The position numbers and the translations under genes were made by a program. A stretch of DNA of 20,992 bases, from positions 1 through 20,992 of IMG/VR virus record IMGVR_UViG_3300043667_000005; one strand, given 5' to 3'. A model generated the notes under the pieces. The model was not told the origin of the DNA, made no database searches, and worked only from the letters and a program-made list of their open reading frames with translations. This stretch comes from a virus. Positions 3,883-20,917 of this stretch are shown here, piece after piece (positions within the stretch are counted from its first letter, which is position 1; the number at the start of each line of letters is the position of its first letter).

Positions 3883-4095
3883 TCAGCTCCCTTCAACCTG
3901 GATAGACGAGATGTGTACGCGGGCAAGGTGTAACACGTCGTTATTGCCCAGCTCGCCATAGAGCAAGGTCAGGATCGGTCCTCGGCCCACGACCATTTCT
4001 TGGAAATCCTCAACCAAGTCCATCACGTCAGAGTCGGGCATGTTTCGGATCTCATGATCATCTCCGTTGCTCATCCGGACGTTTACACGGGGCAT
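3883..4095 (-). CDS. Small hypothetical protein between terminase and portal (70 aa)
   Basis: Not recognised. The sequence starts MPRVNVRMSNGDDHEIRNMP and continues with a mix of predicted strands and an acidic helix (SDVMDLVEDFQEM), suggesting a small folded alpha/beta protein with no Cys. It begins two bases after the large terminase stop and ends one base before the portal ATG, so translation of the three is probably coupled. Its residues V-N-V are encoded by a minus-strand TGTAAACG motif (4080-4087). An upstream in-frame start at 4128 would overlap the terminase coding end and is less likely. Confidence 0.7.
   Translation of the reverse strand: MPRVNVRMSNGDDHEIRNMPDSDVMDLVEDFQEMVVGRGPILTLLYGELGNNDVLHLARVHISSIQVEGS
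4080..4087 (-). repeat. TGTAAACG motif at start of 70-aa gene
   Basis: Minus-strand copy, eight bases after the ATG at 4095, read as Val-Asn-Val (GTA AAC GTC). Confidence 0.5.
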
Positions 4096-4097
4096 AA

Positions 4098-5351
4098 TCA
4101 CGCCGCCATTCTGATGTGAGGTCTCCACAACCTCTGAGTGGTGTTCACGGCATAGCGTAAGGCGTCCACGCCGTGGTCATTGACCTTGATCGGTCGGTCC
4201 TCCCCCAGGATCGCCAGCCGGTCGTCCCAGGAGTAACCATCGATCTCGTCCAGGAGATGGTTGCAACTCCGATGGATCTTGATCTTGTGCTTGCCCATGA
4301 GGGTCGACACGAGCCGAATCCCGTCCAGGACCGCGTTGACGGCCTCGGTCTGGATGATCCCCCGATTCCTCAGCTCGGTCCGAAAGCTCAGGGCCGACGG
4401 GTCCACGATCCAATAGTTGGGGACCACGATGGGCCAGCCCCGGACGGGCTCCGAGGTGAGCCACTCGTTTAAACGGTCCGCGTATTGGGAGTCCGTGAGT
4501 TGCTGGAGGGTCTTCCGCCCGTCGTATCGCCACTCCCCGGCCACGTAGAGATGATCATCCACGCCGAGCCCCATGAGCAGAGCATGGAAGGGATTCGATG
4601 TCCCGTAATCGACGGCCACGCACAGCCAGGCCCGCATCGCGGGGAGGATGTCCACCACGTCCCGGTCCCGGTCCCACATGTCATAGACGGCCCCCTCAGC
4701 GGCTACCCACTCCCCCTCGATGAATCGCCGGTAGTAGAGCCCGTGATACATGCTCATCAGAGCCCGGACGAAATCGGCATCTAGAAACGGGTTGTCCGTG
4801 ATCTTGAACTTGAACGATCGGACCCACTCGGACCCGCCCAGGATGTAGTCCCGCCGGAGCCAGTGGGCCGGGTTGTCCGGGTTGGTCGTGGCGAACACTT
4901 TCGAGCCCGGGACGCTCATCCTGGACAGGAGCTGATTCCAGAAAAGCTCGGGGATCAGGGTGGCCTCGTCCACGTAGGCCCCGCTCCCGGTCATGCCTCG
5001 GATCTTCTCTTCCGACCGAGCATCCGAGGCCCCCACCATGTGGACCGGCCTCCCCAGGATCACGGCCTGCGGGGCTCCCGAGGTATATCGGATCTCCCGG
5101 GCGATGGGGCCGAACTGCTCGGGGTCCTGGAGCGGGAGCATCACGTTGCGGTTGAGAGCCTGGAGGGTCTTCCCGATCATCATGAGCTGGCCACCCGTGG
5201 GAGCGTGCCGGACGTGCTGGAGCCACCTCCAGAGGGAGCCCACGGTCTTACCCGATCGGACCGAGCCCTCCCATATGTTGATCTTGCCTTCGGCCCCCGC
5301 GATGCTGTCTCGCTGCTTGGGGCTCAGCTCAATCCGTGCTGGGTTCGTCAC
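4098..5351 (-). CDS. Terminase large subunit
   Basis: ATP-driven packaging motor with nuclease, about 417 aa. Visible motifs in order: Walker A GSVRSGKT near the N-terminus; Walker B GAYVDEATLI with the catalytic Glu; the ATPase coupling motif in KVFATTNPDNPAHW; then an RNase H-like nuclease with acidic residues in AVDYGTSNPF, YWIVDPSALSF and DHGVDALRY. The DYGTSNP pattern fits PBSX/P22-type terminase families. The frame opens with TTG at 5375, but GTG at 5351 is chosen because GGAG lies seven bases upstream. It overlaps the small subunit gene by 23 bases. It cuts concatemeric DNA and translocates it through the portal encoded downstream. Confidence 0.93.
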   Translation of the reverse strand: MTNPARIELSPKQRDSIAGAEGKINIWEGSVRSGKTVGSLWRWLQHVRHAPTGGQLMMIGKTLQALNRNVMLPLQDPEQFGPIAREIRYTSGAPQAVILGRPVHMVGASDARSEEKIRGMTGSGAYVDEATLIPELFWNQLLSRMSVPGSKVFATTNPDNPAHWLRRDYILGGSEWVRSFKFKITDNPFLDADFVRALMSMYHGLYYRRFIEGEWVAAEGAVYDMWDRDRDVVDILPAMRAWLCVAVDYGTSNPFHALLMGLGVDDHLYVAGEWRYDGRKTLQQLTDSQYADRLNEWLTSEPVRGWPIVVPNYWIVDPSALSFRTELRNRGIIQTEAVNAVLDGIRLVSTLMGKHKIKIHRSCNHLLDEIDGYSWDDRLAILGEDRPIKVNDHGVDALRYAVNTTQRLWRPHIRMAA

Positions 5352-5904
5352 TACCCGGCTCCAGCTCGGGCACAACCTCGCCCCGGATGGTGAGGGTCAC
5401 TCCGTCCAGGAAGTTGATGGCGGTCTCCAGGCCCCCGCCGATCCGGTCATATTCGTCCAACTTGATCGCCCGGTCCAGGAGCAACGTGGCCGCCCGGGCG
5501 AGCTGAGCCTGGTCCTGAGGGTTGGGCTCGTCGTACTCGTCCTCACGCTTCTCGAAATCCCGGCCCCCGTATTGGGTGTAGGTCATCGGGGAGAACATCC
5601 GATCTCGGAGCCGCTCAACGTCGTCCAGGAGCCCCAGACTCAGCTCGGCCCGCCGGTCCGCCGCTTGCCGTCGTCTCACCTCGGTGGCCAGCAAGACCCC
5701 AGACCCGTCGAAGCTCAGCCCGAGCCGTCGGGCGATGGCAGACACGGTGCCATGAGCCAGGCCCAGCTCCCGACTGATCTCGTTTCGCCGCTTGCCCTCG
5801 GCGTGCAGTCGGGCCACCATCTCGTCCTTGGACGTATCAGCCGGGCCGAACCGGCCCCGCTTGTCATGAGGGGTCCCGTTGTCCCCGCTCCCACCCTGGC
5901 CCAT
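5329..5904 (-). CDS. Terminase small subunit
   Basis: The 191-aa product lies directly upstream of and overlapping the large terminase. Residues about 25-60 (SKDEMVARLHAEGKRRNEIS then RELGLAHGTVSAIARRLGLS) form a clear helix-turn-helix, the DNA-recognition part of many small terminases. A helical middle part (RRRQAADRRAELSLGLLDDV, then LARAATLLLDRAIKLDEYDR) fits the oligomerisation region, and the C-terminus is acidic. It would bind the packaging site and load the large subunit. The ATG at 5904 has only a weak ribosome site, so a slightly later start cannot be excluded. Confidence 0.85.
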   Translation of the reverse strand: MGQGGSGDNGTPHDKRGRFGPADTSKDEMVARLHAEGKRRNEISRELGLAHGTVSAIARRLGLSFDGSGVLLATEVRRRQAADRRAELSLGLLDDVERLRDRMFSPMTYTQYGGRDFEKREDEYDEPNPQDQAQLARAATLLLDRAIKLDEYDRIGGGLETAINFLDGVTLTIRGEVVPELEPGSDEPSTD

Positions 5905-5922
5905 GACCAGAGGATAACGGGC

Positions 5923-6399
5923 TCAGCCCTCGGATGGTGTAAACGGGACGGGCTGACTTTCGGCCCGGGCTCGGGCCAGGAGATCCCGGAGCGCATCCCG
6001 GACGGCCCGGATATCGGTGAGGATCAGGTCCGGAAGGTAGACCACCGCTGGGTCCATCTCCCCGTTGGCCAGAGCGGTCAGCACTGCTCGGGCCATGTCC
6101 CGGGGGGCCGTGGGCTCAATCGGGTCCCCCTCGGTCTGCTCCGGGAACGGGCCACCCTCAGAGGGGAACTGTTGATTGATCAGGTTGACGTTCTCGACAT
6201 GCTCGGCGGGGACGCAATCATGCTCGATCTTGATCCCGACCAGGCCCCCTCGGATCTGGATCGCGTAGGTCTCGTCATCGTTCGGGGCCGTGGTCATCGT
6301 GCCCTCGATCGCAAAGGTTGCCAGGGCCTGTTTGCCGCATACCGGGCAGGGTGGCCCCCAGGGCTTGGTGTCCAACACGCGGGTGAGTCCAGGTTCCAT
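5923..6399 (-). CDS. Hypothetical protein with N-terminal Cys pair (158 aa)
   Basis: Not recognised. The N-terminus holds a single zinc-knuckle-like pair (CPVCGKQAL, residues about 18-26), followed by beta-rich sequence (FAIEGTMTTAPNDDETYAIQ, GGLVGIKIEHDC) and a helical C-terminal half (RDMARAVLTAL, LILTDIRAVRDALRDLLARA). A second Cys pair that would complete a zinc site is not obvious apart from one Cys at HDC. The start at 6399 has GGAGG and the TGATCATG context; an upstream open frame reaching 6672 lacks such support. Codons near the C-terminus (F-T-P) are antisense to TGTAAACG at 5938-5945. It sits 18 bases before the terminase small subunit gene. Confidence 0.75.
   Translation of the reverse strand: MEPGLTRVLDTKPWGPPCPVCGKQALATFAIEGTMTTAPNDDETYAIQIRGGLVGIKIEHDCVPAEHVENVNLINQQFPSEGGPFPEQTEGDPIEPTAPRDMARAVLTALANGEMDPAVVYLPDLILTDIRAVRDALRDLLARARAESQPVPFTPSEG
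5938..5945 (+). repeat. TGTAAACG motif upstream of small terminase
   Basis: Plus-strand copy antisense to Phe-Thr-Pro codons, 34-41 bases upstream of the small terminase ATG. Confidence 0.5.
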
Positions 6400-6401
6400 G
6401 A

Positions 6402-6734
6402 TCAAACCTCCAGGTTGTGGGTCCGCCCGAGCTGCCGAACATGCTCGGGGAACCAAGCAGCCAGGCAGACGAAAGCGGTCCGCCGGAGCCTGCCCCAACG
6501 AACCTCGATCGGACGGCCCGAGATCGAATCCCACCCGAAGAGGGTTCGGGTATTGCTGGAGAGCGTCCGTTTCACCCGGTCCACCTCGGCCTTGTCCTGG
6601 GCCAGTGCGATGGCCTCGACCACGGCCCCGGCAACCGCCCACCCGAGCCAGAACGCGGTGAACCATGACCATCGATCGGACGGGCTCGGGGGCACCGGGG
6701 GCAGAGCTGCGGCTTGCTCAGGAACCGGAAGCAT
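6402..6734 (-). CDS. Small membrane protein (110 aa)
   Basis: Not recognised by name. A Pro-rich N-terminus is followed by one hydrophobic segment (about residues 24-44, WFTAFWLGWAVAGAVVEAIA), a charged stretch (QDKAEVDRVKRTLSSNTRTL), a short loop with GWDS, then a second mildly hydrophobic part (RLRRTAFVCLAAWFPEHVRQ). This suggests one, perhaps two, membrane passes. The start at 6734 (second ATG of ATGATCATG) has GAGG upstream. It overlaps the upstream gene by 17 bases and stops two bases before the next ATG. Proteins of this pattern are common as uncharacterised products in actinophages; function unknown. Confidence 0.75.
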   Translation of the reverse strand: MLPVPEQAAALPPVPPSPSDRWSWFTAFWLGWAVAGAVVEAIALAQDKAEVDRVKRTLSSNTRTLFGWDSISGRPIEVRWGRLRRTAFVCLAAWFPEHVRQLGRTHNLEV

Positions 6735-7227
6735 GATCATCCTCGATCGGGACGGCCTGGTAACGACCGTTCACCAGTCTCCACACGTGGCCCGGGGGTG
6801 GGGGGTCCCATATCACCCAACCATGCCGACGGAAAGCATCGATCAACTTGGCTCGGGCCTCGGGGTCGAGCTGTGGCCGGAGTATCGGCACATCCCGGCC
6901 AAGGTGGGTCCCAGCGCTGGCCTGGACATGAACGGCCCGCCGCTTGGCCAGCTCGTCCTCCCCCTCGAACTTCCAGACCACGGGCGGGGTCACCCTGGTG
7001 TGGATCGGTCGGGCCGCCATCGGGAGATCAATCCAGGAATGGATGTGCTGGCCTTTGTCCCCGCATCGGTGGGACTCGGTGAACCATCTCCCGCAGTCCT
7101 GGCAGCGGTATCCGTACCGATGCCGGTCCAGGATCTCTTGGAGCTTGGCCAGGGCTGGCTTGATCAGGGCTACTAGCTCCCGAAATAGCTCCCCGATACG
7201 TGTAAACGCCGCGTCAATGGGAGACAT
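6718..7227 (-). CDS. Hypothetical zinc-ribbon-like protein (169 aa)
   Basis: Not recognised. The N-terminal 35 residues form an amphipathic helix (IGELFRELVALIKPALAKLQ), followed by a likely zinc site YRCQDCGRWF...SHRCGDKGQHIHSW (Cys/Cys then Cys/His). The rest is mixed with a C-terminal domain containing LIDAFRRHGWVIWDPPPPGH and GRYQAVPIEDD. The ATG at 7227 lies inside the end of the upstream gene (14-base overlap), typical of coupled translation. Codons F8-T9-R10 are antisense to the TGTAAACG site at 7201-7208. No enzymatic motif is seen. Confidence 0.75.
   Translation of the reverse strand: MSPIDAAFTRIGELFRELVALIKPALAKLQEILDRHRYGYRCQDCGRWFTESHRCGDKGQHIHSWIDLPMAARPIHTRVTPPVVWKFEGEDELAKRRAVHVQASAGTHLGRDVPILRPQLDPEARAKLIDAFRRHGWVIWDPPPPGHVWRLVNGRYQAVPIEDDHASGS
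7201..7208 (+). repeat. TGTAAACG motif in 169-aa gene
   Basis: Plus-strand copy antisense to Phe-Thr-Arg codons 8-10 of the leftward 169-aa gene. Confidence 0.5.
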
Positions 7228-7444
7228 CGGCCCACCTCACCAGGGGAGCGTGATCGGTGTTGTCCTTGTGAGCCCAGATCCCGGCCAGCTCTCCGGGGTT
7301 GCTGACCCACACGAGCCGCTTGTGACAGATCTGGCAGTCCGGTCCGGCGGGCTCGTGCCAGCCGATCCATTCCGAGACCTTGGCCAGGATCGCATTCCCC
7401 GCCCGGAGCCACCACGGAGCCCGAGCCCGACGGCCCTTGGTCAT
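7214..7444 (-). CDS. Small hypothetical protein with Cys pair (76 aa)
   Basis: Not recognised. A basic start (MTKGRRARAPWWLRAGNAIL) is followed by GWHEPAGPDCQICHKRLVWV, in which CQIC and nearby His residues could bind zinc. The ATG at 7444 overlaps the upstream stop by four bases (ATGA), which argues for this start over the longer open frame to 7528. No Shine-Dalgarno is visible, consistent with termination-reinitiation. The end overlaps the next gene by 14 bases. Confidence 0.65.
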   Translation of the reverse strand: MTKGRRARAPWWLRAGNAILAKVSEWIGWHEPAGPDCQICHKRLVWVSNPGELAGIWAHKDNTDHAPLVRWADVSH

Positions 7445-7713: not shown

Positions 7714-7739
7714 GGTGTCTCCTCGGTAGATGGTCGATC

Positions 7740-7862
7740 TTACACGGATAGCAAGCTCAGAGTCCAGACGATGGCCCCGACGAAAATGATCATGGTCACC
7801 ACGAACAGGACCAGCAAGACCTTAGCGTCCCGCTTGGCCTCGGTGGGATCGAACCGGCTCAC
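7740..7862 (-). CDS. Small single-pass membrane peptide (40 aa)
   Basis: A 40-codon frame starting GTG at 7862. It has a charged N-terminus (MSRFDPTEAKRDAK) followed by one strong hydrophobic helix (about residues 15-38, including VLLVLFVVTMIIFVGAIVW) reaching almost the end. The GTG overlaps the stop of the 38-aa frame upstream by four bases (GTGA), suggesting coupled translation. A longer frame from GTG 7937 is also open, but its extra N-terminus would overlap the other small frame. The hydrophobic helix is coded in either case. Function unknown; it could be a regulatory or host-membrane peptide. Confidence 0.6.
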   Translation of the reverse strand: MSRFDPTEAKRDAKVLLVLFVVTMIIFVGAIVWTLSLLSV

Positions 7863-8799: not shown

Positions 8800-8835
8800 T
8801 TGACAGGACGTGTAAACGGAGTAGAGTAGTACTCA
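8800..8835 (+). promoter_or_regulatory. Rightward promoter P3 with embedded operator-like site
   Basis: TTGACA (8800-8805), then TAGAGT (8822-8827) at 16-base spacing, then GTACTCA (8829-8835). The spacer contains an exact TGTAAACG at 8811-8818, placed to block RNA polymerase if a protein binds. The leader continues GAGCAGCAAGG...ACCACC, related to the leaders of P1 and the 16963 promoter. It drives the SprT-like gene. Confidence 0.78.
8811..8818 (+). promoter_or_regulatory. TGTAAACG motif inside promoter P3
   Basis: Exact copy flanked by GGACG and GAGTAG, between the -35 and -10 hexamers. This is the strongest hint that the dispersed motif is a protein-binding operator. Confidence 0.65.
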
Positions 8836-8877: not shown

Positions 8878-9534
8878 ATGTCCAAGAATCGCCCCGCCCG
8901 TACCCGTGAAGAGTGGCTCCGTGAGGCCATCCGTCGATTCCGTCCGGTTTTCAAGGAAGCCGGGATCGAGATCCCCAAGGGTGTCCGGATCACCATCGGC
9001 TTTGGCCCGACGGGTGCCCGCCAGGAGAACGCGACCATCCTCGGTGTGACTGCCGCCCGGGTGCTCAGCTCGACCAACGTGAATGAGATCTTCATCTCCC
9101 CCGAGCACGCCGAGGCCCCCACCATGCTGGCCACCGTGATCCACGAGCTGATCCACGCGGTTGACGATTGCGAGCACGGCCACAAGGGTCCGTTTGTCGA
9201 GATGGCCAAGGCCCTGGGCCTGGACGGCAAAATGACCGCGACCGTCCCGGGCGAGGAGCTGACCAAGGCTCTGGAGATCATGGCCGACGAGATGGGTCCC
9301 TACCCGGGCTCGAAGATGAATCTCGAAGGTGGCCGCCCGATCGCTGGCCCGGGCGGGGAGATCCCCGGCGGTCCGATCACCTCCGGCCCCCGTCGTCAAG
9401 GTACAAGAATGATCAAGAGAATGTGTGTCCAGGATCCCGAACAGGATTGCTTTGGATACGCCGTCCGGCTGACTCAGAAGTGGATCGACGTGGGCAATCC
9501 CCACTGCCCCAACGGTCACGAGATGACCGTTTGA
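8878..9534 (+). CDS. SprT-like zinc metalloprotein
   Basis: The 218-aa product has the zinc-protease signature HELIH at residues 89-93 within TVIHELIHAVDDCEHGHKG, with His102 and the following PFVEMAKALGL pattern typical of SprT-like domains (HExxH...H). A C-terminal zinc-ribbon-like tail has Cys183, Cys191, Cys210 and His214. SprT/Spartan-family domains are associated with DNA-protein crosslink cleavage in cells; in actinophages they are common near early genes, but their role there is not established. The start at 8878 has GAGGAG six bases upstream and follows promoter P3. The stop overlaps the TTG start of the endonuclease gene by four bases (TTGA). The zinc tail has a frameshifted relative at 9831-9928. 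Confidence 0.85.
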   Translation: MSKNRPARTREEWLREAIRRFRPVFKEAGIEIPKGVRITIGFGPTGARQENATILGVTAARVLSSTNVNEIFISPEHAEAPTMLATVIHELIHAVDDCEHGHKGPFVEMAKALGLDGKMTATVPGEELTKALEIMADEMGPYPGSKMNLEGGRPIAGPGGEIPGGPITSGPRRQGTRMIKRMCVQDPEQDCFGYAVRLTQKWIDVGNPHCPNGHEMTV

Positions 9535-9920
9535 AGATCAGGCAGACTACAGAGCGGCGTAAGCGGTGGTTGGCGTTGTTCTACAACATGACCCCGGCTC
9601 AGTTCGATGAGATCAAGGCCCGCCAAGGCGGCGGTTGTGCGATCTGCGACCAGCCGTGTAAACGGGGAGAACTATCGGTGGATCATGATCATCAGTGTTG
9701 TCCCGGGCCGAAATCCTGCGGCAAGTGTTGGCGAGGTTTGCTTTGCCGTGACTGCAATGCGGGGCTCGGATCGTTCGGGGACGATCCGGAACGGCTCCGA
9801 GCTGCTATGGACTACCTTGCCTGGCCGATCCCGAGGCCGACTGCTTCGGCTACTCGGTCCGGACCACGGCCACATGGCCGGCGGTGGGTAACCCGCACTG
9901 CCCGGCCGGTCATGAGATGA
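9531..9920 (+). CDS. Endonuclease VII-like HNH nuclease
   Basis: About 129 aa. It has the recombination endonuclease VII pattern (T4 gp49 family): RQGGGCAICDQ (Cys36, Cys39), then DHDH at 51-54, a CCPG...CGKC cluster, WRGLLCRDCNAGLG (Cys72, Cys75, Asn76) and FGDDPERLRAAMDYL. This is a beta-beta-alpha metal nuclease with a structural zinc, resolving Holliday junctions and branched DNA. No ATG precedes the domain in frame: TTG at 9531, overlapping the upstream stop, is the best start; ATG 9588 would cut into the N-terminal helix. The residues after DYL (about 97-129) look unnatural, because the -1 frame there encodes a copy of the SprT zinc tail. Confidence 0.8.
   Translation: MKIRQTTERRKRWLALFYNMTPAQFDEIKARQGGGCAICDQPCKRGELSVDHDHQCCPGPKSCGKCWRGLLCRDCNAGLGSFGDDPERLRAAMDYLAWPIPRPTASATRSGPRPHGRRWVTRTARPVMR
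9657..9664 (+). repeat. TGTAAACG motif in endonuclease gene
   Basis: Exact copy in sense orientation, read as Cys-Lys-Arg (TGT AAA CGG) in the nuclease's zinc region. Confidence 0.5.
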
Positions 9921-11293: not shown

Positions 11294-11303
11294 GCCCCAC
11301 GTT

Positions 11304-11336
11304 CAAGATCAACATCTCGGTGAGATGTTGATCTTG
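11304..11336 (+). terminator. Perfect 15-bp hairpin, likely terminator
   Basis: CAAGATCAACATCTC and GAGATGTTGATCTTG pair perfectly over 15 bases with a three-base loop (GGT), followed only by TTCC. It lies after a rightward gene and could end transcription from both sides, although neither side has a U-tract. Confidence 0.65.
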
Positions 11337-11607
11337 TTCCGATCCCTACGCACGCGAGGCGTTTTGCGCCCGGCCAGCGGAATGGACTGCCCTGTAAACG
11401 CTGTACGTGGATAGATCAGCAGTGTAAACGCTGATTAGGCAGGATCTGGCAGGGAGGATTTCCCGCTGGAGCCAACAGCCAGAACCGATAGCTGAATGTA
11501 AACGCCGTTCAAACCGCTGAGCCCAGGCGATAGCTTGATCATCGGTGCGTTGGTGATCCCGCTCTCCCTCTTGCCTTCCCGAAACCACGTGGCCAGAGCA
11601 ACGTCCA
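11337..11607. other. Convergent intergenic region with three TGTAAACG sites
   Basis: No coding frame is convincing between the hairpin and the stop of the leftward HTH gene. The stretch holds three same-oriented TGTAAACG copies (11393, 11423, 11497), the first two followed by CTG and the third by CCG. It contains no promoter that I can support. Confidence 0.6.
11393..11504 (+). promoter_or_regulatory. Cluster of three TGTAAACG sites
   Basis: Exact copies at 11393-11400, 11423-11430 and 11497-11504, all on the + strand; starts are 30 and 74 bases apart. This is the densest group in the window and is outside any gene, so it is the best candidate for a regulatory array. Confidence 0.6.
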
Positions 11608-12108
11608 TCAGGACCGATAGTCCTCGGGAAGATCCTCGCCAACCGGAACGTCCACCGAGATCGAGCTTCCACCGTCGGCATAGACCCGCTGAGTCCCCCA
11701 CTCGGTCTCGGTCACCTTCTCCTCGGTCACCTCATCCGAAGGCACTCCCAAAGGGGTCCACTGCTCGGTCTCCATGGTCGCTCCGAGCCCGGCCAGCTCC
11801 GACTCCACAACCTCGGTCAGGGAGTGGATCTCGACATCCCCCACCTCGGCCATCTCCTCAGTGGCCAGCTCCGGGGGAAGCGTTCCCACCTTGGCCATGT
11901 TCCTCAGCGGTGTGTATCCCTTCCACCAAGCGACCACATCAGCCTGATCCCAGACCGGTCCCATAGCAAGATCAACAACCGGGTTCGGAAAGGCGTTGGT
12001 GTTCTGCCGGGCATACCAGTTCGAGATCGTGGTCCGACCTACTCCGAACAAGGTCGCCAGCTCAGCGATCCCCACCAAGGTCCGGGTTTCCGTGTTGGTT
12101 GTACTCAT
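11608..12108 (-). CDS. Helix-turn-helix DNA-binding protein
   Basis: 166 aa. The N-terminal part (about residues 12-65) reads LVGIAELATLFGVGRTTISN, WYARQNTNAFPNPVVDLAMG and PVWDQADVVAWW, the pattern of MerR/AlpA/excisionase-like winged helices seen in phage regulators. The C-terminal half is long, acidic and probably disordered (rich in E, V and T). The ATG at 12108 is preceded by AAGGTGG; a GTG three codons earlier is also possible. It is the last gene of the leftward replication operon, and the three-site TGTAAACG cluster lies just past its 3' end. A role as binder of that motif is only a hypothesis. Confidence 0.8.
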   Translation of the reverse strand: MSTTNTETRTLVGIAELATLFGVGRTTISNWYARQNTNAFPNPVVDLAMGPVWDQADVVAWWKGYTPLRNMAKVGTLPPELATEEMAEVGDVEIHSLTEVVESELAGLGATMETEQWTPLGVPSDEVTEEKVTETEWGTQRVYADGGSSISVDVPVGEDLPEDYRS

Positions 12109-12118: not shown

Positions 12119-12622
12119 TTACACGCTCTCCAAGCTCAGGACAAGCCGAGCCGGAGGATTCCTCAGGTAGTCGATCCCGAGCCGGATCAGCTCCGGATCG
12201 TCCCCGAACCACCCCAGGATCTCGTTGCACTTGCGATCGAGCAGACCCCGGACACACTCCCGACAACCGGACCCCCCACAGACCTGACAGGAATGATCAT
12301 GATCGATGGCTGCCCGGACGTTTACACCGATCCGCCGTCGGCACCACGCACACCGTCCACCCTGGAGAGCCAAGACGGCCTGGTAGTCCTCATCGGTGAT
12401 CCCGTAGGTGGTCTCTGCCCGCTTGGCTCCCTTGGCCGCCTTGACCAGCTTCCTCCGAGCGTGATGATGCCGGTGGCACCGTGGCCCAGGATGGGGAGCC
12501 GGGAGGTGGTTGATACTCCTGCCCTCCAGCAGACAGTCCTTGCAGATCTTGATCTTGCTGACCTGACCACCACGGCCCCCCACAGCCCCGGGCTCGGCTA
12601 GTTTGAGTGTTTCCCGCTTCAT
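12119..12622 (-). CDS. Endonuclease VII-like nuclease with N-terminal zinc finger
   Basis: 167 aa. The nuclease part has LQGGRCAWCRRRIG (Cys91, Cys94), DHDH at 107-110, CQVCGGSGCRECVRG, then LLDRKCNEILGWFGDDPELI, the endonuclease VII arrangement also seen at 9531. It carries an extra N-terminal zinc finger: Cys27-x2-Cys30 and PGPRC-x2-H (Cys49, His52), and a His cluster HRHHHARR. The free-standing protein at 19152 has the same finger with the same 19-residue spacing. The start at 12622 has AGAGG and the TGATCATG context. It is expected to resolve branched replication or recombination intermediates before packaging. Confidence 0.85.
   Translation of the reverse strand: MKRETLKLAEPGAVGGRGGQVSKIKICKDCLLEGRSINHLPAPHPGPRCHRHHHARRKLVKAAKGAKRAETTYGITDEDYQAVLALQGGRCAWCRRRIGVNVRAAIDHDHSCQVCGGSGCRECVRGLLDRKCNEILGWFGDDPELIRLGIDYLRNPPARLVLSLESV
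12319..12326 (-). repeat. TGTAAACG motif in second endonuclease gene
   Basis: Minus-strand copy, read in sense as Val-Asn-Val (GTA AAC GTC), one of only two exact copies on the minus strand. Confidence 0.5.
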
Positions 12623-12746: not shown

Positions 12747-14993
12747 TTACCCCTCCACGATCCGGCCCGGCTGGGACCGGTTCGGACCAGCCCAGCGAGT
12801 GATTTTCCCGGCATCCTCCAGTTGCACCAGGACCACCTTGAGAGCCTCCATCTTGATCTTGACCGGCGGTTGTGCGGCCAGTAGCCACGTGTGCAGCTCG
12901 TTGGCCGACGTGTACTCCCCACCCCTCTCCCGAAGCACCTGGAGGACCCGCTCGGCTCGGGGGTCGATCTCCTCGTCAAGATCCCCGTCCTCGGTATCCA
13001 CCGGGTTGGAGAGCACGATCGAAGTGAGGTGAGCCCCCTCCAGATCGGTGATCGAATCGTCCACCCGGAACTGGCCGAAGTAGTACCACGGCTCGGACTT
13101 ATCGGTCGAGAGCTGACACCGGGCCGCCACCTCCCCGGCCCGGTCCTTGACCACACTGACCGCCGAGCTGCCCTCGTGCTTGCGGCGTATCGGGGCCGTG
13201 GAAGCCACCAACCGGAACGAGCACCCGTCCACTTCGTCCAGCCACGCCGTGGACCCGAAAGAGTGGATCTCGTCCTGGCGGGACCGGTCCTTGACCGGAT
13301 GACCGAGGGAGAGCACTGCCGCCCCCCGCTTCTCAGCCGGGTTGACGAACATGGCCCGATAGAGCCCCACGGCCTCGGTGTCGTTGACCTTCCAGCCATG
13401 CCCCGAGCAGGCCGCATTGATCCCGTCCAGCACGACCAGATCCGGGTTGAGCCCGAGGTGGTCCAGGGTGTAGCCCAGCTCCCCGGCCTTCCAGGCCCGC
13501 TCGTTGTGCAGCCAGACGAACCGGGCCTTGACAGCATCCATGTCGGCCCCGAGCTGCCTCAGCCGGGCAATCGTGTTCACCGGGGTCTGCTCCTCGAAAT
13601 GGAGATAGACGCACGTCCCACCCTGGGCCAGGATCTCCAGGCAGTGCCACAGCGCGAACCACGACTTGCCCGCCGTGGTCAGACCGATGACCGTATGCCA
13701 CTTGGTGGGGTAGAGCATGAGCGCTCCGTCCACCCGGGTGGCCCCCACGCTGGGCTGGGGGTTGACTATCGAGCCATCGATGTACGGCCCCAGGTCCACC
13801 CACCGGTAGGGCTCGGCCCCGTCCAGCTCGGCGGCCGGATCGAACACCTCGGCCTCGGGCACTCCGGCCAGGGTGGGCTCCAGCCCGAGATCTCTCATTG
13901 CTGCGGCCACGTTGCCACCATGGTCACGAGCGGCGAGGTACTGGAGCTTGGTGTAGTTCCTCCGCTCGGCCAGCCACTCCGGCGGGTTGTCGGTCCAGAT
14001 ATGGAGAGGCCCGTGGCCGGTCTCGGTGTTGGTCTTGGTGCAGCCGGGCTCGTGGGCCGTGGCGGACTTCGGATCGTCGTGGTTGCCGGGGGCCGTCCAC
14101 ATCGGGCAGCCGCACCGGTCGGTCCGGGCCAGCTCGGTCCAGGTCTGGTGATTGGGGAGCCCTACCCTGGAGCCCTGCCCGAGCAGCTCGGCCCACGGGG
14201 TATTGGCCGCCCACTGATCCACCGGATCGTCCGGGTCTTTCTCGGGGGCCACGGGCCGGTCCGGCTCTCCCCGGTCCATCAGCTCGACCAGCCAGCCCGG
14301 GACGAATTCGATCTCCGGTGACTTGAACTGGTAGACCCCCTCGGGCCGTCGGCTCGGCGGGACCAGAGCGTAGTTCTCGCCCCACATCATCACCCAGCCG
14401 CTGGGGGCTTTGTACTTGCCCACCCCCAGGGGTAGCTCGACCCCCTCGGGCACCTCGAACCAAAAGTGACCCCCGTCCTTGTGGACCCACTCCCCCTCGG
14501 CGTTCTTGGCCCCGGGGCTCTGGACCGTGAGCTGAGGCTCCTCGGAGATCGGCCAGATCTGATTGGTGGCCACGCTCCAGTCAGTGAGAAACCCCTCCAG
14601 CTCGGTCGGGGAATCGACATCGATGCACACCATCCGGGACTGGCGGGGCTCAATGGCGATATTCAGCGGCTCGGTGTACTGGGCCTGGACGCGCGTGTAA
14701 ACGGTCTTGGCCTTGTCGGGATCGGTGAGTGCGTGCTTGAGCCCGCAATCATGATCAATCTTGTCCCATCGGGGATTGCCTGCCGCCTTGGCCGCCTCTC
14801 GGGCCTCCCGATCGGCCTTGGCCTTGGTCCTCGGGGTGGTCAGGGTGCAGACCGGTTGCTTGGTGCCCGGCTTGCACAGCACCACGGCGAAACCGTCCCG
14901 GACGGCCTTGGCCACCACGGCGGCCAGCTCGGTCTTATCTCCCTGGGCCACCCGCCCGAAGCTGGAGACGAATCGGTCATTGTCGGAGATCAT
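12747..14993 (-). CDS. Primase-polymerase / RecA-like helicase fusion
   Basis: 748 aa. The N-terminal domain matches bifunctional primase/polymerase (Prim-Pol): catalytic D-x-D in VCIDVDSP (Asp125, Asp127) and the downstream DGGHFWFEVP block. A middle region has a Cys/His cluster (CGCPMW...CT) that may hold zinc. The C-terminal domain is a RecA-like ATPase with Walker A GLTTAGKS (about 437-444) and Walker B PDLVVLDGIN (Asp523), followed by SLGHPVKDRSRQDEIHSFGS, resembling RepA/DnaB-type hexameric helicases. It makes primers and unwinds DNA at the fork. The ATG at 14993 overlaps the polymerase stop by four bases. The last 50 residues suggest a small winged helix (AERVLQVLRERGGEYTSANE). Confidence 0.88.
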   Translation of the reverse strand: MISDNDRFVSSFGRVAQGDKTELAAVVAKAVRDGFAVVLCKPGTKQPVCTLTTPRTKAKADREAREAAKAAGNPRWDKIDHDCGLKHALTDPDKAKTVYTRVQAQYTEPLNIAIEPRQSRMVCIDVDSPTELEGFLTDWSVATNQIWPISEEPQLTVQSPGAKNAEGEWVHKDGGHFWFEVPEGVELPLGVGKYKAPSGWVMMWGENYALVPPSRRPEGVYQFKSPEIEFVPGWLVELMDRGEPDRPVAPEKDPDDPVDQWAANTPWAELLGQGSRVGLPNHQTWTELARTDRCGCPMWTAPGNHDDPKSATAHEPGCTKTNTETGHGPLHIWTDNPPEWLAERRNYTKLQYLAARDHGGNVAAAMRDLGLEPTLAGVPEAEVFDPAAELDGAEPYRWVDLGPYIDGSIVNPQPSVGATRVDGALMLYPTKWHTVIGLTTAGKSWFALWHCLEILAQGGTCVYLHFEEQTPVNTIARLRQLGADMDAVKARFVWLHNERAWKAGELGYTLDHLGLNPDLVVLDGINAACSGHGWKVNDTEAVGLYRAMFVNPAEKRGAAVLSLGHPVKDRSRQDEIHSFGSTAWLDEVDGCSFRLVASTAPIRRKHEGSSAVSVVKDRAGEVAARCQLSTDKSEPWYYFGQFRVDDSITDLEGAHLTSIVLSNPVDTEDGDLDEEIDPRAERVLQVLRERGGEYTSANELHTWLLAAQPPVKIKMEALKVVLVQLEDAGKITRWAGPNRSQPGRIVEG
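14696..14703 (+). repeat. TGTAAACG motif in primase gene
   Basis: Plus-strand copy antisense to Val-Tyr-Thr codons (GTT TAC ACG) of the primase gene. Confidence 0.5.
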
Positions 14994-16753
14994 GCGTCGG
15001 CCCAACGATCACCGAGGTTTTTGAGGTCGGTACGTAGCACGGGGGTCCTCTGGGCTATCTCGATCAAGCGGTTAGGTGGTTGCTCCATGATCTTACGCAC
15101 ATCGTGAGCAGCATCCTCAGAACACACCAGCTCATCATGAAGAGCCAGATAGATAGCGTCCCCGAGCCCCTGGGCCTCCACTTCCACCAGGGCCTCAGCG
15201 AGCAGGTCGTACGCCGAGCCCTGATTCAGGTAGTTAATCCCCTTGTGGGTATGGATGCCCCACTTGGCATCGGCGGGGATCGGCAAGATCCGACCGCTCA
15301 GGGTGAACACCATCTTGTGACGCTCGGCTATCCCCCGCATGTTGCGAACCAGATTCTTGATCTTGGGGATCGGGCCGAAAACCACCTCCCGGAGCCGCTT
15401 GGCCTCTTCCTTGCTCACCCCCAGGTCCAGGGCCAGGGCCGTGATCCCCTCCCCGTAGAGCTGGGCCAACAGCACGACCTTGGCCACGGTCCGGCTGACC
15501 GAGGCCGCCTCAGCGATCGGGAGATACATGTCGGCCTTGACCGTGGGGTCCTCATAAGCGTGGATCACGTCCAGGTCCCGGGCCATGTTGGCTAGGAGCA
15601 CCGGCTCGATCTGGCTCCAGTCGATCGAAGTCATCCGGTCCCCCTCGTCGGCCAGGATGATCCCTCGGGCATCGCCGGGGAACTGGTGTAGTGGCGGGTC
15701 TCCCATGGACATCCGGCCCGTGGTGGCGGCCAGCATGTTGACCGAGGGGAAGACCCGGCCCCCCAGCTCCAGCTCCAGGCACTTGTTGAGGTAGTCGTTC
15801 TGGACGTGCTCGGTCTGCTTGATCGAGATGTACGCCTGAGCCACCGGATGGTGTAAACGGGCTAGGTTCTCGGCGGTCGTGCTCCAGGCCCCGGTCTTCT
15901 CGGTCGTGGGGTAGTCCTCGGGGATGGCCCCGATCCCCTCCAGGAATCCGGTGAGCTGGGTTGCCTTGTTGGGCTCGACCCCCACCGACTTCAAAACCTC
16001 CCGGGCGTGTATCTGCTCGGCCAGATGGGTCTCTTGGTATACGTCGGCCCAGTCCGGATCGATCCTCAGACCCTTGACCGATCGGGGCAGGAAGATCCCC
16101 CGGTTGAGTACCTGCTCCCGCTCGACCAACCGGCGGGCCTCGGCCCCGCTCACCCCGTAGAGGTTGCCCACCCAGGGATGGCCCGAGGTGATCCGGTTGT
16201 GTGCCGCCTCCCGGACCAGGGGGAGCAGCCGGGCCGTGGTGATCGCGTCCCGGGCCGCCCCGTAGATGTAAACGGGCCGGTCCACGTCGAAGCGTTCCCA
16301 CCCCTCGGAGATCTTCATTCCCAGCTCACGAAAGAGCTTGTTCATGGTGGCCCCGGTGTTGGTCCAGCCCAGGTAGCGAGCGGCACACGCTTCCACCGTT
16401 TTCTTGCGGATCACGCTGGGCTCGGCCATCCGGGCATAGATGATCGTGTCCGTCACCTTCCTGCACCACTCGGGCCGCCAGTGGCCGGCCGCTGCCAGGT
16501 TGGGCACGTCATAGGGGGAGTTGTGGAAGATCAACTCATCCACCTCGGAGAATCCCCACTCGATCACCTCAGCCTGGGCCGGGTCCCGGATGTCCAGGAT
16601 CACGGCGTGCTCGGGAGTGGCAAACGTTACGATTTTGATATCTCGTGCTCGCAGTCCGAGACCGTAGGTCTCGATGTCAGCGGCGAGCCAGCTATTTCTC
16701 CTGACAAGGGATTGGAGCATTTCCGGGGCTCCGGACCCGATGGTGTAGCTCAT
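14990..16753 (-). CDS. polA: Family A DNA polymerase with 3'-5' exonuclease
   Basis: 587 aa from ATG 16753; no 5'-3' exonuclease domain. Exonuclease motifs: DIETYG (Asp26, Glu28), FHNSPYD (Asn78, Asp82) and IYGAARDAITTARL (Asp169). Polymerase motifs: TTGRMSMGDPPLHQFP; motif A SIDWSQIEPVLL (Asp378); motif B Arg421-x3-Lys425-x7-Tyr433-Gly; motif C LALHDELV (His539-Asp540-Glu541). Motif B has Leu429 where E. coli Pol I has Phe762. The frame stays open to GTG 16924, with another ATG at 16813, and none has a convincing ribosome site; 16753 is chosen because homology-like sequence begins soon after. It is the replicative polymerase, translated in one unit with primase/helicase. Confidence 0.9.
   Translation of the reverse strand: MSYTIGSGAPEMLQSLVRRNSWLAADIETYGLGLRARDIKIVTFATPEHAVILDIRDPAQAEVIEWGFSEVDELIFHNSPYDVPNLAAAGHWRPEWCRKVTDTIIYARMAEPSVIRKKTVEACAARYLGWTNTGATMNKLFRELGMKISEGWERFDVDRPVYIYGAARDAITTARLLPLVREAAHNRITSGHPWVGNLYGVSGAEARRLVEREQVLNRGIFLPRSVKGLRIDPDWADVYQETHLAEQIHAREVLKSVGVEPNKATQLTGFLEGIGAIPEDYPTTEKTGAWSTTAENLARLHHPVAQAYISIKQTEHVQNDYLNKCLELELGGRVFPSVNMLAATTGRMSMGDPPLHQFPGDARGIILADEGDRMTSIDWSQIEPVLLANMARDLDVIHAYEDPTVKADMYLPIAEAASVSRTVAKVVLLAQLYGEGITALALDLGVSKEEAKRLREVVFGPIPKIKNLVRNMRGIAERHKMVFTLSGRILPIPADAKWGIHTHKGINYLNQGSAYDLLAEALVEVEAQGLGDAIYLALHDELVCSEDAAHDVRKIMEQPPNRLIEIAQRTPVLRTDLKNLGDRWADA
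15852..15859 (+). repeat. TGTAAACG motif in polymerase gene (1)
   Basis: Plus-strand copy antisense to Arg-Leu-His (CGT TTA CAC); it forces a TTA leucine codon, rare in high-GC genes. Confidence 0.5.
16267..16274 (+). repeat. TGTAAACG motif in polymerase gene (2)
   Basis: Plus-strand copy antisense to Val-Tyr-Ile (GTT TAC ATC), just before the third exonuclease motif. Confidence 0.5.
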
Positions 16754-16998: not shown

Positions 16999-17034
16999 GA
17001 GCGCAAGACCACCACTCGAACGGAGAAAATGATC

Positions 17035-17325: not shown

Positions 17326-17558
17326 TCCCCCAGGGTTATCGGCTTTACATCACGAACGGGGAAATTATTGGCCTGATCCTGGGCTGGGTCACTCAGGAGC
17401 GTGACGGATTGACCATCTTCCGGCCCGTATGTCACACGCTGGGAGAAGGTCCAGCCCGAGGAGGGGAGCCTTGGGTCCCCGAAGCAGACGAATTATTCAT
17501 GGTTACCGATCGCCTTAAGGATGCTCGGGGATGGATCGGAGTAAACCTCCATGCTTGA
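17322..17558 (+). CDS. Hypothetical protein (78 aa)
   Basis: Not recognised. It begins MIPQGYRLYITNGEIIGLIL and is strand-rich, with VTQERDGLTIFRPVCHTLGE in the middle and an acidic stretch before LFMVTDRLKDARGWIGVNLH. The fold is probably a small beta protein. The ATG at 17322 overlaps the upstream stop by four bases, and its own stop lies inside the helicase start (8-base overlap), so it is translated together with the helicase. It contains a TTA leucine codon (17491-17500 region). Confidence 0.7.
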   Translation: MIPQGYRLYITNGEIIGLILGWVTQERDGLTIFRPVCHTLGEGPARGGEPWVPEADELFMVTDRLKDARGWIGVNLHA

Positions 17559-19155
17559 GTCCAGGGAGTACCAGGACGAGGCCCTGGACGCCATCGAGGC
17601 CGACTGGGCCGCCGGGATCACCCGGACCGCGTGCGTCCTCCCCACGGGGATGGGCAAGACCATCGTGTTTGCTCGGGCCACCAAGAAGCGAGCCCCGCTG
17701 GGCAAGGTGCTGATCCTGGTCCACCGGGATGAGCTGGCCCGCTCGGCTCACCAAAAGCTCCACTCGGTGGCCCCCGAGCTGGAGATCGGCACCGTCAAGG
17801 CCGAGCAAAACGATGTAAACGCTCCGGTCATCATCGGCTCAGTCCAGACCCTGCGGAATCTCAAGCGGCTGGCCCAGATCGAGAACGTAAAAACGATCAT
17901 CATCGATGAGGCCCACCACGCGATAGCCGAGAGCTACCTCAGGATTCTCGATTTCTTCGGAGCCCTGGACGATGATCCCACGGTGATGGTTGCCGGATTC
18001 TCGGCCACCCTGGCCCGTGATGACCACCGGGGCCTGGGCCGGGTCTGGCAGAACGTGTGCTATCGAAAGGCCATCGTTTGGGGGATCGCCAAGGGCTACC
18101 TCTGCGACGTGAAAGCGCTCTCGATCACCCTGGACGATCTCAACCTGGGGGAGGTGCCCAGCTCACGCGGGGACTACCAGGAGGACGCTCTGGGCCGGGC
18201 TCTGCTCGGGGCCGGGGCAGGCCCCCGGATCGCTGAGGCCTGGCTCACTCACGCCGGAGAGCGTCAGGGATTCCTCTTCACCCCGAACGTGGCCACGGCT
18301 CACCAGTTCGCTGATGACCTGGACGCGGCCGGGATCAAGTCCCACGTGATCACGGGGGCCACCCCGATCGAGCTACGCCAAGAGGCTTACCGGAGATTCC
18401 AGGCCGAGGAGTGCCAGGCCCTGGTCAATTGCATGGTGCTGACCGAGGGTTTCGACATGCCCCAAGCCTCGGTGGCCGTGATCGCCCGGGCCACCAAGAG
18501 CCGCAATTTGTACGTACAAATGGCCGGCCGGGTGCTGAGGCCGTGGCCGGGCAAGGATGACGCTCTGCTCCTGGACGTGGTGGGAGCAACCGCCGAGCAC
18601 AAGCTGGCCAGCATCGTGGATCTGGCCGAGGACATCCTCAAGGAAGTCAAGCCCAACGAGACCATCACGGACGCCATCGATCGGGAGGATCGTGAGGGGA
18701 GCGAGATCGTGGAGGATCTTGGGGGCACGCTCCGGGCTCGGGACGTGGATCTGTTCCATGCCAGCTCGAAAGCCTGGCTCCGGACCCACAAGGGTGTCTG
18801 GTTCATCCCGGTCCGGGGTGGCACGTGGTTTCTCTGGCCGGACCCGAACAACGCCGGAGCGTTCCGGGTGATGTACCACGATCAGGGGACCAGAGGTTTC
18901 CGGGTGGCCGAGGACAACATGGATCTGAGCTACGCCATGGCCTGGGCCGAGGAGCTGGCCACCGAGCAGGACGCATCGATCAGCAACCGGGCCGCGTTCT
19001 GGCGAAACAAGAAAGCCAAGCCCACCGAGGCCCAGTTAGAAATGGCCCGTCGGTATCGGATTCCGGTCACGGAAGACATGACCAAGGCTCAGCTCTCCGA
19101 CCTGATCTCGATCGCTGCCGCTTCCCGGCTCCTGGACCCCAAGGTGGGGCGATGA
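17551..19155 (+). CDS. SF2 DEAH-type DNA helicase
   Basis: 534 aa. Superfamily 2 motifs in order: Q-like region REYQDEALDAIE; Walker A PTGMGKT (31-37); motif Ia VHRDELA; motif II DEAH (119-122); motif III SAT (151-153); motif V LTEGFDMP (297-304); motif VI QMAGRVLRPWPGK (Gln323-Arg330). This is the pattern of the XPB/RecG-like and type III restriction helicase-like branch. The C-terminal 140 residues are extra: a beta-rich part (GVWFIPVRGGTWFLWPDPNN, RVMYHDQGTRGFRVAED), then a helical tail. The start at 17551 has GGAG upstream. It likely remodels forks or recombination intermediates with the downstream Cas4-like nuclease. It includes TGTAAACG at 17814, read Val-Asn-Ala. Confidence 0.92.
   Translation: MLESREYQDEALDAIEADWAAGITRTACVLPTGMGKTIVFARATKKRAPLGKVLILVHRDELARSAHQKLHSVAPELEIGTVKAEQNDVNAPVIIGSVQTLRNLKRLAQIENVKTIIIDEAHHAIAESYLRILDFFGALDDDPTVMVAGFSATLARDDHRGLGRVWQNVCYRKAIVWGIAKGYLCDVKALSITLDDLNLGEVPSSRGDYQEDALGRALLGAGAGPRIAEAWLTHAGERQGFLFTPNVATAHQFADDLDAAGIKSHVITGATPIELRQEAYRRFQAEECQALVNCMVLTEGFDMPQASVAVIARATKSRNLYVQMAGRVLRPWPGKDDALLLDVVGATAEHKLASIVDLAEDILKEVKPNETITDAIDREDREGSEIVEDLGGTLRARDVDLFHASSKAWLRTHKGVWFIPVRGGTWFLWPDPNNAGAFRVMYHDQGTRGFRVAEDNMDLSYAMAWAEELATEQDASISNRAAFWRNKKAKPTEAQLEMARRYRIPVTEDMTKAQLSDLISIAAASRLLDPKVGR
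17814..17821 (+). repeat. TGTAAACG motif in helicase gene
   Basis: Sense-strand copy read as Asp-Val-Asn-Ala (GAT GTA AAC GCT), a different frame from the Cys-Lys-Arg copies. Confidence 0.5.
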
Positions 19156-19301
19156 GTAGCGACCTGGAGAAGGTCTGGTGCGTGGATTGCGTGATGAGCC
19201 CGCTTCCGATTCGGCACCGGGTGGCCAAGTATCCCGGCCCCCGGTGCTACACCCACTGGAAGGTCCTTAAGGGAGACGATCGAGGGAGGAAAGGGAGGTG
19301 A
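19152..19301 (+). CDS. Free-standing zinc finger (49 aa)
   Basis: A 49-codon frame starting by ATGA overlap with the helicase stop. It holds Cys10-x2-Cys13 (VWCVDCVM) and, 19 residues on, PGPRC-x2-H (Cys32, His35), followed by a basic tail (KVLKGDDRGRKGR). The endonuclease VII protein at 12119-12622 has the same C-x2-C, 19-residue spacing and PGPRC-x2-H in its N-terminal finger. The finger is thus a module shared between two proteins of the same phage. It ends by a GTGA overlap with the next gene. DNA or protein binding is inferred. Confidence 0.75.
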   Translation: MSSDLEKVWCVDCVMSPLPIRHRVAKYPGPRCYTHWKVLKGDDRGRKGR

Positions 19302-19597
19302 CCCGCTGCGGTTGGTGCATTTCGGGTGACTGCGAGAACTGCATCATCGTGATCAAGATGGGCACCAAAGCCGAGCGGGGCCACCCGATCAAGAAAGGTC
19401 ATCCGTACTTCTGGCTCTGCAAGTGCCAGGAGTGCATCAAGCCCACCAAGTGCGTGGACTGTCAGAGGCTCTCGGTAGACATAGACGAGAGCTGGAGATG
19501 CCGGAACCGGGAAGCGTGTGCAGCGTGCATAGAGGAGTACGGAGTGTTTAAACGACCTAAGCCACCACAACTGAAGGAGTCCGATGATGCCGCCTGA
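19298..19597 (+). CDS. Cys-rich zinc-binding protein (99 aa)
   Basis: Not assigned to a family. It has twelve Cys arranged as C-x2-C...C-x2-C at the N-terminus (RCGWCISGDCENC) and CKCQEC, KCVDC, C, and CAAC later, enough for two to three zinc sites. The GTG start at 19298 is preceded by GGAGG and overlaps the previous stop (GTGA). The frame contains TTTAAACG (19547-19554), a one-mismatch copy of the dispersed 8-mer, read Val-Phe-Lys-Arg. Position between helicase and nuclease suggests a nucleic-acid-binding role; this is inference. Confidence 0.75.
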   Translation: MTRCGWCISGDCENCIIVIKMGTKAERGHPIKKGHPYFWLCKCQECIKPTKCVDCQRLSVDIDESWRCRNREACAACIEEYGVFKRPKPPQLKESDDAA

Positions 19598-19838
19598 GCT
19601 ACCAGCAGAAGATGATCAACCCGAGATCAAGATAAACCTGGAGGGAGTGGACCAAGTGGACTGGCCGGTCCTCTGGACCGCGTTCGTCCACCCTGCCGCC
19701 CCGAGCTGGGAGCAGCTCGATCCGGCCAGCCGGGGAGCGTTCAAGTTCAATTGGTATCTCCAGATCATGCCCGGTCTTCACGGGTTAGTGACCGCCGTAG
19801 AGGCCTATGACCGCCGGCTGAAAGCACAGAGGAATTGA
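19587..19838 (+). CDS. Hypothetical protein (83 aa)
   Basis: Not recognised. It begins with an acidic Pro-rich stretch, then EIKINLEGVDQVDWPVLWTA, then helical FKFNWYLQIMPGLHGLVTAV. Two ATGs are adjacent (19584, 19587); the second gives seven-base spacing to AAGGAG and is preferred. It overlaps the end of the Cys-rich gene by 11 bases and stops three bases before the nuclease ATG. It has a TTA leucine codon (HGLV). Confidence 0.68.
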   Translation: MPPELPAEDDQPEIKINLEGVDQVDWPVLWTAFVHPAAPSWEQLDPASRGAFKFNWYLQIMPGLHGLVTAVEAYDRRLKAQRN

Positions 19839-19840
19839 TC

Positions 19841-20917
19841 ATGAGCGCTGCCACCGTGGATGATGTCTTTGCCGATGCGGTCCCGATCACCCTCGGGGGC
19901 CGGGATGATTTCGTGGTCAACCACCGCTATCGACTGCCGGACCCAGACAACGAGGAAAAGAACATCACACGCACCCGGGTGACCACGTTCTGCAAGGCCA
20001 TCTCCGATACCTACACGCTCGACCAGTGGGGCAACCGGATGGTGGCCAAGGGGATGGCGATGAGGCCCAGCATTGTGGCCCAGGTAGCCGTGATCCTCAA
20101 TGAGAAGCTGGACGAGACCGAGGAGAAGTACGCTCTCCAGCCGCTGGCCGATGCCGCCAAGAACGCCGCTGCCGCTCGGGAGGGGGCTGACCTGGGCACG
20201 GCTCTGCACTCATTCACCGAGCAGCACGATCGGGGCCGGGCTCCGGTGGTCCCCGAGCCCTGGGACCGGGACATGATCGCGTACCGGACCGCCCTGGACA
20301 AGATCTCGGCTCATGTGGAAGACCCGCTCATTGAGCGGATCGTCCTGGTCTTCAAGTACGCCGTGGCCGGGAAGTTCGATCGCATTCTCAAGCTGGCCAA
20401 GCCCTGCCCGACGTGTAAACGCCGCTACCGGGTGGCCGATCTCAAGACCGGTCGAGATCTCCAGTACGGATGGCATGAGATCGTGGTCCAGCTCTCGCTC
20501 TATGCCCACGCGGACAAGATGCTCAACACCTCGGGGACCAAGCCCCGGTGGGAGACCTTCCCTCCGGTCTGCCCGTGCGTGGGGTACGTGATCCACCTCC
20601 CGGTGGGCAAGGGACTGGCCACGCTGTACGTGATCGATCTGATCGCCGGATGGGAGGGGGCCGAGCTGTGTCATCGGGTCCGGCAATGGCGGAAGCGGAA
20701 GGCCCTGGCCGAGCCGATCTCTCAGATCGAGGTCACGGGCAACCCCCAAGCGGGCTACACCGTGGTGGACCACATCCCGACCTGGGCCGAGCGGATCAAG
20801 CTGGCCGCCTCGGTGGGAGAGCTGAGCGATATCTGGCAGGAAGCCAGCCGTAAAGGCCAGTGGACCGATGAGCTGGAGGCCCTGGGGAAGCGGCGTCAGT
20901 CCCAGCTCGCAAGTTGA
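19841..20917 (+). CDS. Cas4/RecB-like PD-(D/E)XK exonuclease
   Basis: 358 aa. RecB-type nuclease motifs: His123 in GTALHSFTEQHDRG, Asp180 in AGKFDRI, D-x-K in RVADLKTG (Asp200, Lys202), and the helix QLSLYAHA (Gln217, Tyr221). A Cys pair CPTCKRRY lies between motifs II and III, with PVCPCV later; these may bind a metal (whether an Fe-S cluster as in true Cas4 is not clear). Such nucleases are common in actinophage replication modules and are taken to process recombination ends. The start at 19841 has AGAGGA upstream and the TGATCATG context, three bases after the previous stop. TGTAAACG at 20414 is read as Cys-Lys-Arg in the CPTCKRR segment. Confidence 0.88.
   Translation: MSAATVDDVFADAVPITLGGRDDFVVNHRYRLPDPDNEEKNITRTRVTTFCKAISDTYTLDQWGNRMVAKGMAMRPSIVAQVAVILNEKLDETEEKYALQPLADAAKNAAAAREGADLGTALHSFTEQHDRGRAPVVPEPWDRDMIAYRTALDKISAHVEDPLIERIVLVFKYAVAGKFDRILKLAKPCPTCKRRYRVADLKTGRDLQYGWHEIVVQLSLYAHADKMLNTSGTKPRWETFPPVCPCVGYVIHLPVGKGLATLYVIDLIAGWEGAELCHRVRQWRKRKALAEPISQIEVTGNPQAGYTVVDHIPTWAERIKLAASVGELSDIWQEASRKGQWTDELEALGKRRQSQLAS
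20414..20421 (+). repeat. TGTAAACG motif in exonuclease gene
   Basis: Sense copy read as Cys-Lys-Arg (TGT AAA CGC). Confidence 0.5.

Follow-up and report, generated by a model that had tools for sequence, protein, structure and literature searches.

A dispersed DNA word accompanies the SprT-like metalloprotease gene across phage genomes

Dispersed operators of a single phage protein are known from the c1 operators of phage P1 and the repressor sites of phiC31, which are bound by repressors and not by a protease. In ImmA/ImmR-type pairs an HExxH protease is tied to promoter control; there, repressor and protease are separate proteins and the sites are few. The repressor–stoperator system of phage L5 and its cluster A relatives places many strict sites across the phage genome, one of them in an early promoter (PMC9283540, PMC6550527). 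Spartan-type enzymes are DNA-dependent proteases that cut themselves and DNA-bound proteins (PMC5127644), and the accessible text on the antirestriction protein ArdC of plasmid R388 describes a metalloprotease domain joined to DNA binding that acts on incoming DNA (PMC7213743). The papers that we found do no more than annotate the SprT-like proteases of phages, suggest a protease acting on host proteins or note a toxic gene product (PMC8758107, PMC7824862, PMC7474061, PMC13402561), and in the open-licence literature we found no link between them and a dispersed DNA word. Here, we analyze a virus fragment of 20,992 bases (IMG/VR record IMGVR_UViG_3300043667_000005; the window), which is identical to the whole record, so that all counts cover this fragment. 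It carries a SprT-like metalloprotease gene and a recurring 8-bp word, TGTAAACG.

The window protein shares the HExxH zinc protease domain of Spartan/SPRTN, Wss1 and SprT; for these enzymes, in contrast to the phage system proposed here, neither recognition of a DNA sequence nor a genome-wide set of cognate sites is known. ArdC also resembles the proposed phage protein in combining a metalloprotease with DNA binding; it differs in binding single-stranded DNA, and the accessible text of PMC7213743 reports no dispersed site. Like the L5/cluster A system, the window has many strict sites, one of which lies in an early promoter, but the stoperators of that system are 13–14 bp long, intergenic and oriented with transcription, and are bound by a two-domain helix-turn-helix (HTH) repressor of the L5 gp71 type, without a protease. 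We found that the window word is enriched and selectively conserved, that it is tied to the SprT gene and to a C-terminal signature of its product, and that a site lies in or beside the SprT promoter. It is likely that the SprT-like metalloprotease encoded by the phage itself reads the site, CGTGTAAACG in the window and CGTKTAAACG across the family, via its C-terminal domain; the protein would repress its own gene and be carried to phage DNA.

Counts, form and conservation of the word

The 14 exact copies of TGTAAACG, 12 on the plus and two on the minus strand, lie exactly where a first-pass annotation of the window had placed them (Table 1), at a density of one per ~1.4 kb, and the sequence also bears out its four near copies (1798, 2295, 4468 and 19547). 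No other 8-mer of the window is as enriched. Dinucleotide shuffles gave an expectation of 0.12 copies (largest 2 in 100 shuffles), an order-2 Markov model 0.1, and a synonymous-codon shuffle in which intergenic DNA was also shuffled 0.42. This last null, the strictest of the three, was built on 30 approximate gene models and never exceeded three copies in 1000 runs. Across the three nulls the expectation is 0.1–0.4 copies (the annotation had estimated ~0.3), and the enrichment withstands the codon-preserving check that the annotation had proposed.

The word had been described as asymmetric, which is nearly right. It forms the core of a pseudo-palindrome of ~10 bp, CGTGTAAACG, in which CGTGT/AAACG is one position off the perfect palindrome CGTTT/AAACG; the palindrome itself occurs in the window at 4467 and, with one flank altered, at 19546. 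Ten of the 14 copies fall in coding sequence, five on the strand of the gene and five opposite according to the gene map, which shows that the 12:2 strand bias is independent of transcription. As judged from the sequence, a dispersed protein-binding site is very probable, as had been suggested; the polar function suggested with it is not supported, since orientation does not follow transcription.

The nearest relatives of the window are actinophages and contigs with about 40–64% protein identity, and single-protein scans with the polymerase and helicase found no close ones. Relatives selected by terminase or polymerase lack TGTAAACG because they lack SprT; we therefore searched by promoter arrangement instead of homology. 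The pattern TTGACA-GTGTAAACG-TAG retrieved two GC-rich contigs from IMG/VR, G021 (14 copies in 43 kb) and G022 (5 in 31 kb), with no hits for the reversed controls; their structural genes are unrelated to those of the window. With the palindrome CGTTTAAACG at that promoter position, the search retrieved four relatives of G021, giving a group of five related phages that are 80–85% identical. At an orthologous promoter of this group (20924), relatives are one or two bases off TGTAAACG, and CGTTTAAACG is carried in such promoters. Thus, one reader probably accepts both forms.

Across the G021 group, sites were exactly conserved in 120 of 151 aligned cases (79%), as compared to 32% of 8-mers of equal GC. 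This supports the annotation's view that the DNA itself, rather than an encoded peptide, is under selection. Conservation was similarly above background in Sue2/DrManhattan (15/18 sites; background 0.26) and in Stuff/Araceli (35/39; background 0.55). Spacing was more even than random (p<0.05) in seven of 13 phages tested.

The word and the SprT-like gene

The only protein common to the window and the G021 group is the SprT-like product of 8878–9534. SprT is also the sole gene family common to all 12 motif-rich phages compared, of which nine were chosen for SprT and three (the window, G021 and G034) came from searches with the motif. SprT-encoding phages were taken blind to motif content. The seven full-length homologs first sampled, from Streptomyces, Microbacterium and Arthrobacter phages, gave 43 matches to GTKTAAAC in Araceli, 42 in Stuff, 33 in Honk, 25 in Sue2, 23 in Barnstormer, 22 in Zeta1847 and 17 in Emotion, and none to the reversed motif. 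In every one of them, de novo counting ranked GTGTAAAC first among 8-mers. DrManhattan has 26 sites. The comparison genomes R4, G045, G007 and G009 have none and G001 has one; SprT was not found in R4, G001, G007 or G009. Beyond actinophages, GTTTAAAC is the strongest 8-mer of cyanophage Pan1 (16 versus 0.02 expected) and occurs seven times in Burkholderia phage Mica (0.09 expected).

Next, we considered 80 contigs that a scan of IMG/VR had picked on SprT homology alone, using a 7-sequence alignment (one of 18 SprT sequences was too diverse for scanning). The phages of the SprT-selected sample span 32% to 73% GC. These contigs contain 609 GTKTAAAC sites versus 21 expected, while 56 TerL/polA-selected loci without SprT contain 10 versus 6.6. 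The 77 contigs with the C-terminal signature account for 608 sites (20.2 expected; reversed motif 16 versus 25), with more than 3-fold enrichment in 76 of them, and the three with a broken or missing signature for one (0.63 expected), a split that is descriptive because the signature was defined after the sequences had been inspected.

Both the presence of the motif and its form follow the SprT C terminus. The signature is present in all motif-rich phages, while Armstrong, Sharkboy and MW2, which keep the protease domain with another C terminus, have 0–1 sites; Honk, with its 33, infects the same Microbacterium host strain as Armstrong and Sharkboy. Proteins of the QxTRM..GSG type go with 116 GTG versus 1 GTT sites, those of the QxxRN type with 2 versus 68, and those of the QxxRL type with 3 versus 30. 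We also considered AGAAGTAT as an alternative site of C-terminally different SprT proteins and rejected it, as its copies lie at other promoters with no clear tie to SprT.

The position of the site at the SprT gene is likewise recurrent. In 14 of 15 named SprT genes with a normal C terminus, a site lies no more than 100 bp ahead of the annotated start, either inside the -35/-10 spacer or beside the -10 box; in the 15th, Zeta1847, the annotated start is upstream of a better ATG and the site stands just before that ATG. In 54 of the 80 contigs, the 300 bp preceding the SprT match contain a site, as compared to 15% of random windows. A scan of 84,980 bacterial and archaeal species for the promoter arrangement gave six matches, none of them actinobacterial, which we attribute to chance; the lack of an actinobacterial match fits a phage-specific address.

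Within the protein, the residues of the HExxH motif (H89, E90, H93) and a third histidine (H102) are invariant across 48 homologs, which suggests that catalysis has been kept. Pfam PF10263 is matched by 39 of the 48 (best 3.4e-8). In the AlphaFold model (pLDDT, the predicted confidence score, 87.8), a low-confidence linker sets the C-terminal domain apart from the protease domain.

Candidate readers of the site

The annotation had pointed to stoperators as a parallel. Dispersed, strict and AT-rich sites, one of them in an early promoter, would suit the immunity repressor of an L5/cluster A-type phage, and G021 does encode such a repressor (phrog_357, E 2.7e-22); we first favored this reading for it. 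However, the site, CGTKTAAACG, has neither the 13–14 bp nor the TGTCAA(G) core of a stoperator, its orientation is independent of transcription (five with and five against in the window, mixed in G021 too), and most window copies are intragenic, where stoperators are intergenic or at gene ends. Moreover, G021 has a separate stoperator-like set, CTAGTATTTG, with 14 copies, 12 of them in one orientation, at -35 boxes and gene starts (for example, 20122, 28237 and 36822). Early promoters of G021 hold both elements, and the word at the CTAGTATTTG position varies among the relatives of G021 while CGTKTAAACG does not. Since this separate set fits the published description of stoperators, the CGTKTAAACG binder is probably not the L5-type repressor of G021. 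R4 has an L5-type repressor, no SprT and no site, and an L5-family repressor was not found in the window record, itself a fragment. On finding the separate set we dropped the stoperator reading, which now appears highly improbable. The HTH protein at 11608, which had been put forward as a binder, was also rejected, as it is not common to the motif-rich phages.

A second phage DNA-binding protein might read the site instead, with SprT as its obligate partner, for example as a protease removing it in the manner of ImmA/ImmR. Repressor–protease pairs are known and several phages have a protein annotated as "DNA binding" close to SprT, but that neighbor is also present in two phages without the motif, Armstrong and Sharkboy, and no other protein family is common to all motif-rich phages. 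This, together with the way in which motif presence and the GTG/GTT preference track the SprT C terminus, makes a second reader unlikely. A host DNA-binding protein would account for one word in unrelated phages; we dropped it after the genome scan, with its lack of actinobacterial matches, and the same-host contrasts (Honk against Armstrong and Sharkboy). The carriers of the word infect actinobacteria, cyanobacteria and proteobacteria, and we give a host factor hardly any credence. Finally, a signal for replication, recombination or packaging (similar to Chi, KOPS or primase sites) would agree with the even spacing and the strict octamer, yet it is very improbable for a nearly palindromic site that is equally distributed between strands in Stuff (21/21), sits in core promoters and is tied to SprT, not to polymerase or recombinase genes.

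Several observations weigh against SprT as the reader. SprT-family proteins are not known as sequence-specific binders. The best second-look structural match of the model, human Spartan (6mdw; Z 8.2, rmsd 4.0 over 104 residues), is modest although of the expected family; Foldseek with the model as a whole returned nothing below E 0.04; and the window protein scores 14.9 bits against PF10263, below the cut-off of 25.6. G022 has six GTGTAAAC sites, and SprT was not found in its 30.9-kb record of unclear completeness. The proteobacterial phages ep3, KA2-1 and Persinger carry the signature with only 4–7 copies of GTTTAAAC, and just 9 of 23 sites are conserved between Honk and Zeta1847, still above the background of 0.21. 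Last, the phages compared are related to varying degrees, and their counts are not independent draws.

Nevertheless, we favor the SprT-like protein, and direct binding by its C-terminal domain is quite likely. In the proposed mechanism, this zinc-ribbon-like domain would recognize CGTKTAAACG. Bound at the copy in the -35/-10 spacer (8811), the protein would repress its own synthesis, and such autorepression is probable. The other copies would keep the protease attached to phage DNA, and its zinc active site could cut proteins bound there, such as roadblocks, silencers, nucleases or replication blocks. This last step, drawn by analogy with Spartan, is more tentative.

Features of the window and meaning of the association

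Apart from the SprT-like gene, the window encodes capsid, portal, terminase, endonuclease VII, PrimPol/helicase, family A polymerase, helicase and exonuclease proteins. Positions are collected in Table 1.

Table 1. Copies of the word, variant sites and SprT-related features of the window
Feature	Position	Strand	Context
TGTAAACG	4080..4087	-	codons 3-6 of small gene between terminase and portal
TGTAAACG	5938..5945	+	antisense, 3' end of minus-strand open reading frame 5923-6672
TGTAAACG	7201..7208	+	antisense, near start of minus-strand open reading frame 6718-7227
TGTAAACG	8811..8818	+	proposed operator copy, -35/-10 spacer of SprT-like gene
TGTAAACG	9657..9664	+	small HNH-type gene
TGTAAACG	11393..11400	+	intergenic three-site cluster, convergent genes
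TGTAAACG	11423..11430	+	intergenic three-site cluster, convergent genes
TGTAAACG	11497..11504	+	intergenic three-site cluster, convergent genes
TGTAAACG	12319..12326	-	endonuclease VII gene
TGTAAACG	14696..14703	+	antisense, PrimPol/helicase gene
TGTAAACG	15852..15859	+	antisense, DNA polymerase A gene
TGTAAACG	16267..16274	+	antisense, DNA polymerase A gene
TGTAAACG	17814..17821	+	DEAD/ResIII helicase gene
TGTAAACG	20414..20421	+	exonuclease gene
GTGTAAAC variant site (TGTAAACC)	1797..1804	+	
GTGTAAAC variant site (TGTAAACA)	2296..2303	-	
GTTTAAAC palindromic variant	4467..4474	.	terminase gene
GTTTAAAC palindromic variant	19546..19553	.	
Predicted sigma70-type promoter of SprT-like gene	8800..8827	+	TTGACA 8800-8805, 16-bp spacer with CGTGTAAACG, TAGAGT 8822-8827; read from sequence
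SprT-like metalloprotease gene, 218 aa, phrog_6361	8878..9534	+	PHROG 6361 E 7e-41; proposed motif reader
HELIH codons, predicted zinc protease active site	9142..9156	+	H89, E90, H93; third ligand probably H102
C-terminal zinc-ribbon-like domain	9391..9531	+	RRQGTRMIK..C....Y.VR.T.KW...G.P.CP; proposed DNA reader

Other repeats were observed alongside these features. A terminator-like hairpin, CAAGATCAACATCTCGGTGAGATGTTGATCTTG (11300–11340), lies between convergent genes and adjoins the three-site cluster. A box, TACTCAGAG or TACTCATGAG, directly follows the -10 element in several predicted promoters (8830, 10033, 11073 and 16990 on the plus strand and about 8258 on the minus strand). The window is also enriched in CAAGATCAA (11 versus 0.25 expected) and in ATGATCAT (16 versus 0.9; for example, 10369, 17027 and 19838), which at times overlaps start codons and is found in G001 as well (12 versus 1.35). 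G001, the nearest terminase relative, which lacks SprT, has its own dispersed 10-mer, GAGACCGTGC, in eight copies (6785, 9073, 33366 and 38801 among them); their strand mostly agrees with local gene direction, and two overlap GTG starts. The genomes of Mica and Persinger share the dispersed word AACGACAAC, with 10 and 8 copies, and Trine carries a promoter-like repeat, TGACATTTAAGACATTACA, at 27285–39613, with six copies of its core, all in one orientation.

The association suggests a function and a target sequence for a common phage gene known so far only as a "SprT-like protease." The phages might possess a widespread class of metalloproteases that read a DNA word via the C-terminal domain, a possibility that we judge slightly less likely than not: by seeding its genome evenly with the word, a phage may aim proteolysis at the proteins on its own DNA, spare the host chromosome and keep the protease gene under its own control. 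A protease addressable to one genome via a DNA word might also be developed into a laboratory tool for DNA-addressed proteolysis. For other unexplained dispersed motifs of phages, the reader may be sought as the gene whose presence tracks the word in unrelated genomes.

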